A DNA stretch of 64,000 nt from Candidatus Bathyarchaeota archaeon (GTDB lineage: Archaea; Thermoproteota; Bathyarchaeia; Bathyarchaeales; Bathycorpusculaceae): positions 1-64,000 of the forward strand of contig JAOZIH010000006.1 in the NCBI GenBank assembly GCA_026014545.1. Reading direction: 5' to 3'. The notes under the pieces are model-generated. The model worked only from the letters and a program-made list of their open reading frames with translations. It did no database searches and was not told the origin of the DNA. Positions 4,151 through 46,808 of the stretch are shown here, in pieces (the first letter of the stretch is position 1; every line of letters starts with the position of its first letter). The translations under genes were made by a program, and so were the position numbers.

Positions 4151-4929
4151 TTCAGGAGTTCCTCAACCACGGCTTTCAGGTCATCAGTGCCAGTTAACTT
4201 CAAGAAAATATCCTCTAGACCAGAATCGGGCAATTTAGCCATCTGCCTCAACTCGCTCATGTTACCTAAAGCCAAAAGTTTTCCTTGGTACATGATGCCT
4301 ATGCGGTCGCATATCGCCTGCGCTATCTCCAACACGTGCGTGGACATTATGGCGGTTACGCCCTGCATTTTCAATTTATGAAGAACCTCTTTGACGATCC
4401 GCGCTGAACGGGGATCCAAAGCGTTTAACGGCTCATCTAAAATCAGAAGCCTTGGCTTGTGCAGGAAAGCAGAAATTAGGGCGATTTTCTGCTTCATGCC
4501 TTCTGAGTAACTGCTGATCATATCGCCTTCTCGCCCTTCAAGCTGCAGCGCTTTCAGGTATTCAGTGATTCGGCTCTTCTTTTCCTCCGTTGACATGCCG
4601 TATATGTCGCCTATAAAGTCCAGATATTCAATGCCCGTCAAGAACTCGTATAATCGCGGAGACTCGGGAACATAGCCCACTTGCTGCTTCACAGCCACTG
4701 GGTCCTTCTGAACATCTTTTCCCAAAACTATGATTGAGCCTTCGTCAGGTTTAACTAAACCCAGAAGCATCTTCAGAGTAGTTGACTTACCCGAACCGTT
4801 GGGGCCTAGCAACCCGAAAATTTCTCCCATATTTATGCTCAAGTTAAGTTGATTTACCGCCAAAAGCTTGTGGTAACGTTTCACCACACCCTTCAGTTCA
4901 ACAGCTAAGGCGCCGCTCGTGGTTAACAA
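4147..4929 (-). CDS. ABC transporter ATP-binding protein
   Basis: A 260-residue ABC ATPase of the ABC-2/CcmA class. Visible motifs are Walker A GPNGSGKST, a signature in the degenerate form YSEGM, Walker B LLILDEP with a D-loop NALDP, and the switch histidine in STHVLE. It powers the downstream permease, with which it overlaps by 4 nt. The signature has SEG where SGG is usual, a substitution common in this exporter class. The start is a TTG with GAGGT almost touching it, so the exact N-terminus is uncertain. The gene is divergent from a second exporter operon on the other strand. Confidence 0.88.
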   Translation of the reverse strand: MLTTSGALAVELKGVVKRYHKLLAVNQLNLSINMGEIFGLLGPNGSGKSTTLKMLLGLVKPDEGSIIVLGKDVQKDPVAVKQQVGYVPESPRLYEFLTGIEYLDFIGDIYGMSTEEKKSRITEYLKALQLEGREGDMISSYSEGMKQKIALISAFLHKPRLLILDEPLNALDPRSARIVKEVLHKLKMQGVTAIMSTHVLEIAQAICDRIGIMYQGKLLALGNMSELRQMAKLPDSGLEDIFLKLTGTDDLKAVVEELLK

Positions 4930-35700: not shown

Positions 35701-36696
35701 CTAACCACTGACCTTATTGCAGGCTACCCAGTGCCCGTTGCCTACGTCAACAAGCTCGGGCACGTTTTCAATACAATTATACTCCTTTGCGTATATGCAG
35801 CGCGGGTGAAAACGGCATCCCTTAGGCGGGTTTATTGGGCTGGGAACTTCTCCCGGCAGCACTATCCGTGACCTTTTGTTTTCTGGGTCTGGAACAGGAA
35901 TCGCCGAAAGCAACGCTTGCGTGTACGGGTGCAACGGCGAACTGAACAACTCGCTTGTTTCAGCTATTTCCACAAATTTACCGAGGTACATAACAGCTAC
36001 TCTATGACAAATATGCCTAACAGTGCTAAGGTCATGAGAAATGTAGAGGTAAGCTATCCCAAATTTCTGCTGTAGCTCCTGCATTAAATTTAAGATTTGC
36101 GCTCTAACCGAAACATCTAAAGAAGCCACAGGCTCATCTGCAATCAGTAACCTCGGCTCTACTGCCAAAGCGCGGGCAATGCAGATTCTCTGGCGCTGCC
36201 CGCCACTGAATTCATGCGGGTACCTCTCTGCGTGATAGTCTTCCAAACCCACTAACTCCAGTAATTCGTAAAGTCTAGCATGCCACTTTTCCTTGGGCAC
36301 ATGCTTGTGGATAACAAAAGGCTCCATGATTATATCCGCCACAGTCATTCTCGGGTCAAGCGACGCGTAGGGATTCTGAAAGACATACTGCATCTTGCGT
36401 CTCAGCTTCAAAATTTCCTGCTGGTTCTTTGACTTGAAAATTCTGCCAATTTCCTGCCCTTCAAAGTAGATTTCTCCGGAAGTAGGCGGATCCAAATAGA
36501 GCACCGCTCTGGCAGTGGATGTCTTTCCGCAGCCGCTTTCTCCAACTAAACCAAACGTTTCGCTTTTTCTAACCGAAAAGCTTACGCCGTCAACTGCATG
36601 AACAACGCCGACCTCTTTTTTCAGAAATACACCTCGACTCGTTAACGGGTAATGCTTGACGAGGTTTTTGACTTCCAAGATCATTTCGTTACTCAC
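35701..36696 (-). CDS. oligopeptide ABC transporter ATPase (OppF-like)
   Basis: A 331-residue ATPase with GESGCGKTS (Walker A), the signature FSGGQ, LLIADEP (Walker B), and the Opp-type C-terminal tail GCRFHPRC. A family Cys-rich end follows (YNCIENVPELV). GTG at 36696 is chosen as start: it overlaps the upstream stop as GTGA and is preceded by AGGGAGTG. It pairs with the OppD-like ATPase to power the two permeases upstream. The order B-C-D-F is that of a complete importer. Confidence 0.92.
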   Translation of the reverse strand: MSNEMILEVKNLVKHYPLTSRGVFLKKEVGVVHAVDGVSFSVRKSETFGLVGESGCGKTSTARAVLYLDPPTSGEIYFEGQEIGRIFKSKNQQEILKLRRKMQYVFQNPYASLDPRMTVADIIMEPFVIHKHVPKEKWHARLYELLELVGLEDYHAERYPHEFSGGQRQRICIARALAVEPRLLIADEPVASLDVSVRAQILNLMQELQQKFGIAYLYISHDLSTVRHICHRVAVMYLGKFVEIAETSELFSSPLHPYTQALLSAIPVPDPENKRSRIVLPGEVPSPINPPKGCRFHPRCIYAKEYNCIENVPELVDVGNGHWVACNKVSG

Positions 36697-37694
36697 TTTT
36701 TCACTCCCTTGCCGTTTTCCATGAATTCTTTGGCGCGGATGCATGCCACATAATGCTCAGGCTCAATTTCAACCAAAGGCGGAACAACAGAGGCACATTC
36801 AGCCACCGCGAAGTCGCATCTTGGATGGAATCTACAACCGGACGGCGGCGAAATCAAGTTTGGAATAGCGCCCGGTATGATCTTCAGTTTTTCTCTTTTC
36901 ATGGCCACATTTGGAACAGCCTCTAAAAGCGCTCTCGTGTATGGATGCAGAGGATTACGGAAAATAGTCTTGGTGCTCGCGACTTCACAGACTCTTCCAG
37001 CGTACATAACGTTTATTCTATCAGCCACTCCAGCGACAACACCCATGTCATGCGTAATCAGAATCATTGACATCCCAAGCTTCTTCTTCAGATTCTTCAT
37101 CAACTCGAGAATCTGCGCTTGAATTGTAACATCCAAATTTGTTGTAGGCTCATCTGCCAAAAGCAGACTTGGCTGGCATGACAAAGCCCTAGCGATAGCG
37201 ATGCGCTGTTTCATGCCTCCGCTCAGTTGGTGCGGATAATTCCAAATCTTTATTTCAGGATCAGCTATCTCGACAAGCCTAAACAATTCTATGGCTTTTT
37301 TCAAAGCTTCTTCCTTGGTGACATTTTGATGACGCCTTATAACCTCTGTCAGTTGGTCGGCAATGCTGAAAACAGGATTAAGCGAAGTCGCAGGATCCTG
37401 CGAGATATACGCGATCTCTTTTCCTCTTATCTGCTGCATTTCATTTTCAGTTTTCGCCAGCAAATTTTCGCCTTTGTATATTATTTTTCCATCAATTATT
37501 TTGCCTGGCCTAGGCACTATTCTGAGTATGGAGAGGGCGGTTACGGATTTTCCAGAGCCTGACTCGCCAACTAGCCCTAGAGTTTCGCCTTCTCTAACGT
37601 CCAAGCTTACGCCGTCAACAGCTTTGACTACTCCCGCCCAAGTGTAAAAGTAAGTTGTCAGGTTTTCAATTTTTAATATTTCCTTTGGCGCCAT
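36693..37694 (-). CDS. oligopeptide ABC transporter ATPase (OppD-like)
   Basis: A 333-residue ATPase with GESGSGKSV (Walker A), LSGGM signature, [12 protein letters not shown] (Walker B) and the OppD/DppD tail [16 protein letters not shown]. This tail in some family members binds a [4Fe-4S] cluster. It lies between permease and OppF genes with short spacing, one operon. The likely imported substrates are peptides; sugars are an alternative, since archaeal Opp-like systems often carry oligosaccharides. Confidence 0.92.
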
Positions 37695-37716: not shown

Positions 37717-38673
37717 TTATTCCCTAAGACGTGGATCTAGCGCGTCTCGTAATCCGTTCCCGAGCAGGTTGAAGCCTAGAACCAGCAATGTGATGAACAT
37801 TCCAGGAAAGATTCCTTCCCACCAAGCTTCTTTCACCGCTTCACTGGCTCCTTGGAGTTGCTGACCCCACGTAACGCTGTTCGGGTCTCCGAATCCGAGG
37901 AAACTAACTCCTGCTTCAACTAAAATTGCCGTTGCTATCTGAAGCGTAGTTAAGACGATTATGACATGCAAAACGTTAGGGAGAACATGCCGAAACATTA
38001 TCCTCCATTTGCTGGCGCCCAGCGCCACCGCCGCTTCAATATACTCATTCTGTTTCACGCGAAGCACTTCACCGCGGATGATACGCGCGTTTGGCGCCCA
38101 AGAAAACAATCCGATTATGAGGGTTACGGTGGTGAGGCCGCCGACGCCTGAAGGTGCGATGGTCATGGCGACGCGCAAAAAGACCAGCAGAATCAGAAGG
38201 AATGGAATAACAAGGAAAATTTCTGTTATTCGCATCAAAATATTGTCCACGAGTCCGTCGAGGTATCCTGAGGTGATGCCTATTACAATTGCGAGGGACA
38301 TGGCAATTGCTGCGGCGCCAAATCCTACATATAAGACGTTGCCTGCACCGTAGACGATTTGGCTGAATACGTCGCGGCCAATGTAATCTGTGCCAAACCA
38401 GTATTTGGAAGACGGCGGCACTCTGATTTTGCCTTCTTCATTGAAGCTGGCAAGATAGTTCAGTGGATAACGCGCAATTATCGGACTGAATATGGCTATG
38501 AATATGATGACGCCGACGATTATGAGGCCTGCTAGGGCCGCCTTGTTCTTCTTAAATCGACGCCATGCGATGCTCCATTGGCTTACTCCATCGGTTCTTC
38601 TTTTCTCAGGTGTCTCCAGCAGTTTCTCTTTCATTACGTCTGCCATTTCTATTCTCCTTACATTGTTATTCAA
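37717..38673 (-). CDS. oligopeptide ABC transporter permease (OppC-like)
   Basis: A 318-residue permease with an N-terminal helix in KKNKAALAGLIIVGVIIFIAIFSPIIA, the OppC hallmark FGTDYIGRDVFSQIVYG, and the EAA loop EAAVALGASKWRIMFRHVLPNVLH, which docks on the ATPases. Its start overlaps the upstream permease's end by 8 nt. Helix count and length are normal. Confidence 0.93.
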   Translation of the reverse strand: MNNNVRRIEMADVMKEKLLETPEKRRTDGVSQWSIAWRRFKKNKAALAGLIIVGVIIFIAIFSPIIARYPLNYLASFNEEGKIRVPPSSKYWFGTDYIGRDVFSQIVYGAGNVLYVGFGAAAIAMSLAIVIGITSGYLDGLVDNILMRITEIFLVIPFLLILLVFLRVAMTIAPSGVGGLTTVTLIIGLFSWAPNARIIRGEVLRVKQNEYIEAAVALGASKWRIMFRHVLPNVLHVIIVLTTLQIATAILVEAGVSFLGFGDPNSVTWGQQLQGASEAVKEAWWEGIFPGMFITLLVLGFNLLGNGLRDALDPRLRE

Positions 38674-39706
38674 TTCTGATTCTTGGGTCGATGTAAGCGT
38701 AAGCTATGTCCGTTATCAAGTTGGCAAACAAAACCATCAATGTTACGAATACCGTAATTCCCGTTATCACGGGAAAATCAAGTTTGCCTATCGCTTCAAC
38801 ATATAATCGGCCAACACCAGGCCAATTAAACACTTTCTCAGTGATTGGTGCTCCGGCGAGCATGCCGCCGAAATAGAGCCCCACATAGGTTACGACTGGA
38901 ATTAGCGCGTTGCGCAGTGCATGCTTATATATCACTGTTCGTTCGCTTAGGCCGCTGGCTCTTGCTGCAAGTATGTAGTCTTGCCTTAAAACTTCAAGCA
39001 TGCTTGACCGCACGAGAAGCACAACTGGTGCAAGCTCTGCGAAAGTTAAGACGACAGCGGGCAGGAACAGGTGCCACAGTTCATCCATTATATAGCTGCC
39101 GAATGGATAACGACTTGGGTCAAGTGAGTGTGCTGCGCCGTAGGGGAACCAGCCTAGAAAGTAAGAAAAAATGAGTATGGCGACTATACCCATGTAGAAA
39201 ATTGGTATGCATGTTCCCACAAGAGATGTTGTTGTAACGGTCATGTCTAATTTTGAATATTGCTTGCGTGCTGAGAGTATTCCAATTGGAATAGCTATTA
39301 GAAGCGAAAAGGAAAGTGCGGTAAGTTGAAGTTTGAAGGTTTCCCATGCGTAGTCGCCGACTAGCGTAGTCACAGGGGTGCCGCCTCTTATTGCGTAGGA
39401 ATTTCCCAAGTTGCCTTGTAGCATTTCCCATACGAACTTTAAGAATTGATAGTATAATGGCTGGTCAAGTCCATAGTACTGTGTTAAGCGTTCTCTAGCT
39501 TCTGCGGTTATCCGCGGGTTGAGTCCAGTCATCAGTTTAACTGGGTCGCCTGCCATTCGAGTAGCGACAAATACTATAATTAGAATTCCGAAAAAGAGAG
39601 GTATCAAATACAAAAGGCGTCTAAGGACGTATTTCGTCATGGAACTTTTAGCGATGTGCAGAATCTTAGAGCGAATCGCGTGAAAACCTTCTGTTTTGCT
39701 AGGCAA
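38666..39706 (-). CDS. oligopeptide ABC transporter permease (OppB-like)
   Basis: A 346-residue permease: MTKYVLRRLLYLIPLFFGI from residue 23 is the usual OppB opening, and the EAA loop reads LAARASGLSERTVIYKHALRNALIP. The TTG at 39706 gives a 22-residue extension and is supported by a strong GGAGGGGGAG about 8 nt before it; ATG at 39640 has no ribosome site. It is the first gene of the B-C-D-F operon and is divergent from the binding-protein gene. Confidence 0.93.
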   Translation of the reverse strand: MPSKTEGFHAIRSKILHIAKSSMTKYVLRRLLYLIPLFFGILIIVFVATRMAGDPVKLMTGLNPRITAEARERLTQYYGLDQPLYYQFLKFVWEMLQGNLGNSYAIRGGTPVTTLVGDYAWETFKLQLTALSFSLLIAIPIGILSARKQYSKLDMTVTTTSLVGTCIPIFYMGIVAILIFSYFLGWFPYGAAHSLDPSRYPFGSYIMDELWHLFLPAVVLTFAELAPVVLLVRSSMLEVLRQDYILAARASGLSERTVIYKHALRNALIPVVTYVGLYFGGMLAGAPITEKVFNWPGVGRLYVEAIGKLDFPVITGITVFVTLMVLFANLITDIAYAYIDPRIRIE

Positions 39707-39889: not shown

Positions 39890-41758
39890 TTGCTCTCTAA
39901 AACAAAAACGCTGACGTTATGCTCGCTACTGCTACTAAGTTTGTTCGCATTGCCATGCATTACATTCGTTCAGAGCCAAGGACAACCTTACTTCAAAATA
40001 ACACTGATTGTCCCAGGCCCGAACCAGGCAAGAAAAGCATGGGCACAAGTAGTGGAAAATAACCTTGACGCAGTCGGAATCGACGCAGTTAGGGTTGAGC
40101 TAGATTGGGGAACAGTCTATGACAGAGCCCTTACACCCCCTGAGGATGTAGTAGGCAAGACTTACGATGAAGGCGGCTTCGACGCGCTGTTCATCGGCTA
40201 CGCAATGGGCATAGATCCAGACCCGTTTGGACTTTATCACAGCAGCCAGTTCCCACCAGCAGGACAAAACTACTACCTCTGGGATAACGCTGAAAACGAT
40301 AGGCTATGCGAGCTAATCAAGGAAACAGTTGACGAAAACGAACGGCTCGAATATGTAAAGCAATGGCAAAAACTGGCATACGAAGAACAACCATCAGCAA
40401 CCATACTCTACACAAGAGAAGTTGTGGCGTTTGACCCAACAGCACTGCAGAAAGAGCCCTTCTTGGCATATCACTATCCAGCGTGGCCCAGAGTCAAGAA
40501 CTGGAAATTAGCCGCTGGCAGTACTCAAACCACCATAGTTTTAGCACAAACAGGACCAGCGCCAGAAGAAGGCTTGAACCCACTGCTGACTACTTCCTAC
40601 TATGACTTAACAGTATATGACAACGTTTTCGACAGCCTAGCAGAAAGAAAGGATCTAATTGACATGGAAATGGTTCCAGCGCTAGCTACAAGCTGGGAAG
40701 TAGCCTCTGACCAAAAGACTTGGACAGTGCATCTTAGGCAAGGCGTGAAGTGGCATGATGGTGTTGAATTTACCGCTGACGATGTTAAATTCACATTCGA
40801 TTCAGCAATGAATGAAGAAATTGCCTCGCCAACAGGCGCCTTCGTTACGGAAATCTTGGGCAGTCCAGATAATATTGAGGTCGTTGACGACTATACTGTC
40901 GTGTTTAGGCTTCCAAAGCCATACGCATATTTCGTCGAAACCATATTGAGCTCCTACATAATTCCGAAGCATGTGCTCGAAAACGTCCCGCCATCAGAGT
41001 GGGCGTCTCACCCATTCAACACTGCATCCGGCAGCTACACAGTTGGCTCTTACACGGCTTATGGACCAATAGGAACTGGACCGTATGTTTACGCAGCGTA
41101 TGACCCGACAACCGCCGCTAACATAATGACCAAAAACCCAGATTACTGGAACAAGGCCGAGTTAGAAGCGGCTGGAACATTCCAAATAGAAACCCTTTAC
41201 GTGCAATGCATTGAGTCTTCTGACGCAGCAATTTCCGCGCTCAAGTCAGGCGAAGTTGACGTATTAGACTCGCAATATCACTTAGAAACAAAGCTTGCAA
41301 GTATCGAGCAGCCATGGGGTGACTACGCTGCTTACGATGCCTTCGGCGTGCAGGAACTCGGCTTTAACATGCGTCATCCAGTTTTCGGAACAGGTGTTGA
41401 TACGCCGCTTGGCAAGAAAGATCCGTCACGCGCTGCTGAGGCTGCCCGTTACGTTAGACAGGCAATTAGCCACTTAATACCAAGGCAGGACATAATCAAC
41501 ACTATACTAAATGGTTATGGGACTCCAGGTGTTACCACGCCTATTACAACCCTGACTGCTGGATATGACACATCACTAGAGCCCTACGAATATGACGTGG
41601 AGTTGGCAAAATCGCTGTTAGCTGCGGCTGGCTACGAAACAGGAGTTGCCCCGCCTGGCGGCGATTTCCTGCAGCAGTATGGCCTGTACATAGCTGTCGT
41701 GGTTGTTGTAGTGATAATCGCAGTGGTCGCCGTCGTGATGCTTAGACGGAAGCATTAG
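39890..41758 (+). CDS. circularly permuted, membrane-anchored peptide-binding protein (SBP_bac_5)
   Basis: A 622-residue substrate-binding protein divergent from the Opp operon. After the signal peptide (1-30) comes a block (about 34-205: FKITLIVPGPNQARKAW, NNLDAVGID, FDALFIGYAMG, ATILYTREVVAFD). In normal family members that block is the C-terminal end. The usual N-terminus follows: TIVLAQTGPAPEEGLNPLLTTSYYD, then LATSWEVASDQKTWTVHLRQGVKWHDG. The chain then reaches VELAKSLLAAAGYE, where the missing block would normally follow, and ends in a membrane helix and RRKH. So the domain order is circularly permuted, with the anchor at the C-terminus. The TTG start has GGAGGAGG nearby. The fold should still bind peptides for the adjacent importer. 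Confidence 0.85.
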   Translation: MLSKTKTLTLCSLLLLSLFALPCITFVQSQGQPYFKITLIVPGPNQARKAWAQVVENNLDAVGIDAVRVELDWGTVYDRALTPPEDVVGKTYDEGGFDALFIGYAMGIDPDPFGLYHSSQFPPAGQNYYLWDNAENDRLCELIKETVDENERLEYVKQWQKLAYEEQPSATILYTREVVAFDPTALQKEPFLAYHYPAWPRVKNWKLAAGSTQTTIVLAQTGPAPEEGLNPLLTTSYYDLTVYDNVFDSLAERKDLIDMEMVPALATSWEVASDQKTWTVHLRQGVKWHDGVEFTADDVKFTFDSAMNEEIASPTGAFVTEILGSPDNIEVVDDYTVVFRLPKPYAYFVETILSSYIIPKHVLENVPPSEWASHPFNTASGSYTVGSYTAYGPIGTGPYVYAAYDPTTAANIMTKNPDYWNKAELEAAGTFQIETLYVQCIESSDAAISALKSGEVDVLDSQYHLETKLASIEQPWGDYAAYDAFGVQELGFNMRHPVFGTGVDTPLGKKDPSRAAEAARYVRQAISHLIPRQDIINTILNGYGTPGVTTPITTLTAGYDTSLEPYEYDVELAKSLLAAAGYETGVAPPGGDFLQQYGLYIAVVVVVVIIAVVAVVMLRRKH

Positions 41759-46178: not shown

Positions 46179-46808
46179 CTAATCTTTTTCATATAAACAT
46201 TTTCGCGCTTGAATTTTGTCTAAGTGTTTAGGATTGGAGAAACCTATTTCTTTTATCCAGAGACTTAACATCTTGAAGCCGTATATAGCTACATGATAAC
46301 CTTCTGTTTGGTTACCGCGGGGTCTTGCTCTGAAACCGTTTTGCTGTAAAATTTGGGTTATTTGGTTTGCCAAAATTTTACTGCATGTTCTAATTTCAAG
46401 CGTGGGATAAATTGGATCTTCATATGTTTTCTTGCTGAAAAATATAGTTCCATCAGTATCCATTATGCCCCTTATTGTCCACTTAACATAATTCCATCCC
46501 TTCTGCAGTATGCAGTAGGGTATCGATACTGAATGAGATTTTTCTTTACCTGCAGGAAGCCCTATTTCTAAAAGTGAAATGTATGCCTCCTTAGACTGAA
46601 GTCTCCACCGTAGCGCCCTCTGATGTATGCGCAATGGATATGGCAGCTTTTTAAACAAGCGGTACGAGATCGTGGAAAGGTAATTAAAATATTCCCTGTC
46701 AAGGTGAGGATGTCCAGTGATCTCGATTCTGTATCGTGATCCATCTGACCACAAGTTGCCATTTCCAATTATAGCTCCGACTAATTCGCATAAATCTTGA
46801 GATTTCAA
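46179..46808 (-). CDS. free-standing LAGLIDADG homing-endonuclease-like protein
   Basis: A 209-residue protein with two LAGLIDADG motifs: LVGAIIGNGNL (about 9-19) and IRGIMDTDGTIFF (about 112-124). Each is followed by the usual mixed-beta DNA-contact region (RYRIEITGHPHLDREYF, and TLEIRTCSKILANQITQIL). In the first motif the catalytic acid of G-D-G is Asn (G-N-G); the second keeps Asp. So nuclease activity may be weakened or lost; intron-maturase function is an alternative. It ends 25 nt before the intron-bearing tRNA-Phe on the same strand, but is not inside any intron. Confidence 0.82.
   Translation of the reverse strand: MKSQDLCELVGAIIGNGNLWSDGSRYRIEITGHPHLDREYFNYLSTISYRLFKKLPYPLRIHQRALRWRLQSKEAYISLLEIGLPAGKEKSHSVSIPYCILQKGWNYVKWTIRGIMDTDGTIFFSKKTYEDPIYPTLEIRTCSKILANQITQILQQNGFRARPRGNQTEGYHVAIYGFKMLSLWIKEIGFSNPKHLDKIQARKCLYEKD

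Follow-up and report, generated by a model that had tools for sequence, protein, structure and literature searches.

Few proteins are as common in prokaryotes as solute-binding proteins, whose chain order has, to our knowledge, been treated as fixed. Within cluster C, the B. subtilis oligopeptide-binding protein AppA (PDB 1xoc) is a reference for the canonical order. In E. coli, DppA is the binding partner of the DppABCDF importer (PMC12136057; PDB 1dpp, 8z1z); it is free in the periplasm, its charged residues R383 and D436 grip dipeptides, and the scoop motif of DppB fills the cleft of docked DppA (PMC12136057). Circular permutation is already known in other proteins (PMC3320104). The searchable literature, outside which most subscription journals lie, described engineered sensors or dealt with unrelated topics; no ABC solute-binding protein with a naturally permuted chain was reported there.

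Here, we analysed a stretch of 64,000 nucleotides from a Candidatus Bathyarchaeota archaeon (contig JAOZIH010000006.1; hereafter the window), in which one gene very probably encodes a working solute-binding protein of cluster C (SBP_bac_5, OppA/DppA type) with a circularly permuted chain. It belongs to a subfamily, type A, that is conserved and linked to OppBCDF. Domain content and, going by the model, fold are common to this protein and AppA, whereas the order differs: the chain opens with what is the last part in AppA, and a membrane helix is added at the C-terminus. Like DppA, it is a binding protein with B-, C-, D- and F-type importer genes as neighbours; unlike DppA, it is permuted and predicted to be anchored, and R383 and D436 are not evidently matched. 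While the SBP_bac_5 family and its importer are already known, the more striking claim is that of a repeated and reversible permutation. It is probable that importer peptide-binding proteins changed their order several times, with two cut points, three rotations, one spread to bacteria together with the transporter and at least one reversal. The features of the locus are as follows.

39890-41758, + strand: permuted peptide-binding protein of the SBP_bac_5 family, 622 aa, from the TTG start through the stop codon (open reading frame, Pfam, AlphaFold2 model)
39890-39985, + strand: signal peptide, aa 1-32, hydrophobic, of low model confidence (sequence, pLDDT <50 for residues 1-30, hydrophobicity)
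39989-40510, + strand: moved block, aa 34-207, normally C-terminal, canonical positions 343-476 plus tail (phmmer, Pfam, HMM, structural register)
40502-40531, + strand: junction of old C-terminus and old N-terminus, aa 205-214, around NWKLAAGSTQ (same site in all 20 aligned members)
40517-41644, + strand: normally N-terminal part, aa 210-585, ending at the AAGY motif, the attachment point of the moved block (Pfam, model versus AppA)
41645-41683, + strand: short linker of ~13 residues (aa 586-598) between binding domain and membrane helix (sequence, AlphaFold2 model)
41684-41740, + strand: membrane helix at the C-terminus, about aa 599-617, with RRKH after it (sequence; mean Kyte-Doolittle 3.44)
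38666-39706, - strand: OppB permease (Pfam domain BPD_transp_1)
37717-38673, - strand: OppC permease (Pfam domains BPD_transp_1 and OppC_N)
36693-37694, - strand: OppD ATPase (Pfam domains ABC_tran and oligo_HPY)
35701-36744, - strand: OppF ATPase (Pfam domains ABC_tran and oligo_HPY)

The gene is one open frame with 0 stops and 0 frameshifts. Its product matches PF00496 with 245 bits against a curated cut-off of 32.4 (E 1.7e-72), in two swapped pieces: profile positions 288-359 lie at 39992-40240 and are followed by positions 1-281 at 40667-41644. A canonical-order HMM built in this analysis aligned aa 40-181 with positions 343-476 and aa 230-594 with positions 19-340 (numbered on the stop-to-stop frame, which starts 9 residues before the TTG). 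Likewise, phmmer placed query residues 34-180 on AppA 359-494, 242-396 on 48-185 and 520-583 on 281-345, three pieces that do not overlap and jointly span the family once. Going by the Pfam positions and the structure model, all parts of the SBP_bac_5 fold are present, each once, and the chain runs C-N1-N2 instead of the canonical N1-N2-C. No repeated block was detected among the distinct binding-protein ORFs classified with three block HMMs, nor did the window gene contain an internal DNA repeat of ≥20 bases. The protein is thus a circular permutant, with the same content in a rotated order, nothing duplicated and the old termini joined.

The original prediction, made from the sequence, had placed the C-terminal block of SBP_bac_5 proteins at the N-terminus, which Pfam, the canonical-order HMM and the comparison with AppA all bear out. 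It was right on the position of that block and wrong on its end: rather than stopping at ATILYTREV, the block runs to about aa 207 (VVAFDPTALQKEPFLAYHYPAWPRVKNWKL), the stretch beyond being the ordinary C-terminal tail of such proteins, and meets the old N-terminus (TIVLAQTGP) with almost nothing in between. The further proposal, that the chain ends where the block would attach and then adds a membrane helix, agrees with the AAGY motif at 585 and the hydrophobic helix at ~599-617. Duplication had been raised as a competing account; as neither the block HMMs nor the DNA repeat scan revealed any block twice, the permutation stands.

Structure prediction, proposed along with the original prediction, gave a confident single-chain model whose halves match AppA separately. 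The AlphaFold2 model, computed from an alignment of the window protein with 19 relatives (20 rows), reached a pLDDT of 84.8 and a pTM of 0.82 with both blocks confident together; low confidence was confined to the signal peptide and the anchor linker. The two halves were superposed on AppA one by one, the aligners used being ones that follow chain order. Residues 209-585 matched AppA 17-347 with a Z score of 25.2 and an rmsd of 2.5 over 327 residues. The moved block falls in register with AppA 358-481 and the equivalent C-terminal part of other SBP_bac_5 structures; the structural match of this fragment is poor (rmsd >12), its support coming from register and not from shape. Because the pLDDT drops to 61.5 when the moved block is modelled alone, it seems to depend on the remaining chain, as expected of a permutant. 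Among the matches listed for the profile of the 20-member alignment and for Foldseek, no solved chain was collinear over both blocks.

The neighbouring OppB, OppC, OppD and OppF genes, described in the original prediction as a normal Opp operon and found to be just that, lie on the - strand, divergent from the permuted gene across a gap of 183 bases. Opp neighbours (B, C, D or F) occur in 24 of 29 type A loci, bacteria included, a few of these loci coming from the same genome. The window protein is likely a membrane-tethered peptide receptor for the adjacent importer. By analogy with the family, the signal peptide would export it, the two-lobed flytrap fold would be kept with a short loop joining the old N- and C-termini, and the C-terminal helix would tether it to the outside of the cell membrane, where a peptide-like ligand would be captured and passed to OppBCDF. 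The chain ends would have shifted from the original termini to a loop near AppA position 347, so that the tether would exit from another face while the fold of the pocket would stay unchanged; an anchor at this new end would grip the protein by a different face. On the phmmer/AppA alignment, R383 and D436 of DppA fall on ~P42 (by extrapolation) and M106, with no evident like residues. Since the dipeptide-binding charges are not evident, the ligand could be something other than a dipeptide, such as a longer peptide or a different small molecule.

A named-genome scan and whole-genome searches recovered the same order in Bathyarchaeota, as well as in Methanomethylicota and a few bacteria; the original prediction had proposed looking for it in other archaea. 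Nineteen relatives share 35-89% identity, and one junction is common to all 20 aligned members. In the window's class, 36 of the 256 genomes searched have type A order (E 1e-40 or better), as do 22 of 300 genomes in a phylum sample. The bacterial carriers are Neoroseomonas, Reyranella soli, Acidisphaera, Acetobacteraceae, Rubritepida and one Desulfobacterales chromosome. Under a strict threshold, with the best few candidates per genome scored, only the seed genome had type A in each of two bacterial samples, one of 240 genomes from the class that includes Neoroseomonas and one of 198 genomes from the phylum to which the Desulfobacterales record belongs. The bacterial distribution therefore looks sporadic. 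The bacterial proteins (Neoroseomonas, Reyranella, Acidisphaera, Desulfobacterales) share permutation and junction with the window protein and mostly an OppBCDF cassette, yet, unlike it, they lack the C-terminal anchor. In Neoroseomonas (L074:11567-13654, L081:12628-13656), the permuted gene is followed, starting ~5 kb further downstream, by a second SBP_bac_5 gene, which has canonical order and is cut by the end of the locus. In one permuted relative (L067:5890-9120, 1077 aa), the binding domain is separated from the C-terminal anchor by a PKD domain plus additional sequence.

In a tree for which all chains were rotated into a common order, the type A clade comprises 35 rows (34 of type A order and L150, bacteria included) with a support of 100/89, and the bacterial rows form one clade (100/100) nested among archaeal type A. 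The permutation of this main clade would have arisen once, in archaea, although the root among canonical proteins is weak in the tree from which the archaea-first direction is read. The most likely route would be a tandem gene duplication followed by loss of the outer parts; none of the classified ORFs represents such an intermediate. One copy with its OppBCDF would then have passed to bacteria, where the anchor would have been lost, unless it was never present. The divergent L009 (= L165:168-1970) has type A order and takes another place in the tree; it is possibly an independent permutation, with one origin shared with type A not being rejected (AU p = 0.071).

Within the permuted clade, the canonical order reappears in L150:3301-5426, a gene on a 6.9 kb contig that reads signal peptide, N-block to AAGY, frameshift, C-block and membrane helix. 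Its two halves are closest to the permuted proteins of its own genome (60-61% and 70-73% identity), it adjoins the OppB, OppC and OppD genes in the divergent arrangement typical of these loci, and forcing it out of the permuted clade was rejected (AU p = 0.00012). Judged from its sequence, the gene represents a return to canonical order. The single frameshift near 4690, between the halves, may reflect real decay or a draft error, and the gene is perhaps broken. However, its order is independent of the frameshift because each half has its proper end (signal peptide, anchor).

A second permutation (type B) has the order N2-C-N1: it starts at Pfam position ~146, runs to the end and closes with 1-141, placing the cut at ~143 as compared to ~284 in type A. 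These proteins, too, are permuted members of SBP_bac_5 in the window's class, differing from the window protein in the cut. The type B profile (E 1e-60) was found in 53 of 256 genomes of this class, examples being L013, L015, L018, L022, L027, L055, L183 and L187-L190, among others; keeping L018 with the other type B rows was not rejected (p = 0.329). As this cut adds to type A and canonical order, all three cyclic rotations of the fold exist in the class. Among the fetched ORFs, which were gathered in a way that biases the sample, 80 were N1-N2-C, 35 C-N1-N2 and 11 N2-C-N1, in addition to partial ones. C-terminal extensions of type B proteins are often long and mostly devoid of a membrane helix. 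The tails of L183, L013, L185 and L188 bear paired Asp/Asn-rich repeats that appear dockerin-like by eye (e.g. GDVDGNDFVEVKDLLAIALAYGSSPG); for those of L183 and L013, Pfam returned no match at 0.001.

Could the unusual order be an artefact, in that the junction reflects an assembly error, a frameshift or a chimeric gene? The source is a draft genome of 41 contigs, yet the identical junction recurs in many independent assemblies, including those of cultured isolates (Neoroseomonas, Reyranella soli) and the Desulfobacterales chromosome. The frame is open, G+C is equal in both blocks, and a comparison with L062 (dN 0.064, dS 0.75, moved block and remainder alike) shows that the window gene is under purifying selection equal in both blocks. 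Assembly error, a caveat of the original prediction, is therefore refuted by the relatives, an artefact having next to no probability. Domain swapping, with the first block completing the pocket of a neighbour to form a dimer, would be compatible with the sequence and with the poor model of that block alone; however, the single chain is modelled confidently (pTM 0.82) and the loop between the old termini is short, as in a monomeric permutant, which makes a swapped dimer very improbable. Scarcely more probable is a change of role to sensor or adhesin, with the service to the importer given up. Some relatives do have extra C-terminal domains before their anchor, such as the PKD domain of L067, but Opp neighbours are retained over two domains of life, and no other SBP_bac_5 protein was found in the source genome (1.86 Mb).

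The original prediction had further held that the permutation suits the binding pocket to a C-terminal anchor, i.e. that the order is an adaptation bringing the chain end to the membrane-facing side. With anchors called by hydrophobicity (Kyte-Doolittle), a C-terminal helix is present in 26 of the 28 intact type A proteins from archaea (exceptions: L009 and L163), whereas archaeal proteins of canonical order mostly have N-terminal hydrophobic segments and few C-terminal helices. Against this stand the bacterial type A proteins, none of which (0/8) has such a helix, their chains stopping 1-2 residues past the AGY motif, and L009, which is permuted with an N-terminal hydrophobic helix and none at the C-terminus. 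Conversely, the canonical-order archaeal proteins L017, L029 and L034 possess C-terminal hydrophobic helices, the reverted L150 is still C-terminally anchored, and only 1 of 21 type B proteins has a C-terminal helix. The claim thus goes unsupported, and we regard an adaptation to the anchor as unlikely, though the least improbable of the alternatives. Anchor and order travel together by descent in archaea, but bacteria, L009, L017, L029 and L034 break the pairing, so that neither requires the other: the permutation is tolerated, not needed for anchoring. Given the 26 of 28 intact archaeal members with a helix, it is possible that the anchor was already there when the permutation arose.

As a single family contains a permuted subfamily, another permutation and a return to canonical order, mostly with the same type of transporter, the effect of chain order and tether position on binding, docking and uptake can be asked directly. 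Besides, natural permutants with known cut points could be useful in the design of binding-protein sensors. For annotation, it matters that profile tools call the permuted genes SBP_bac_5 fragments. Elsewhere in the window, a free-standing ORF at 46179-46808 (- strand) matches LAGLIDADG_3 with 20.5 bits, just below the curated cut-off of 22.5, and is a possible homing endonuclease.
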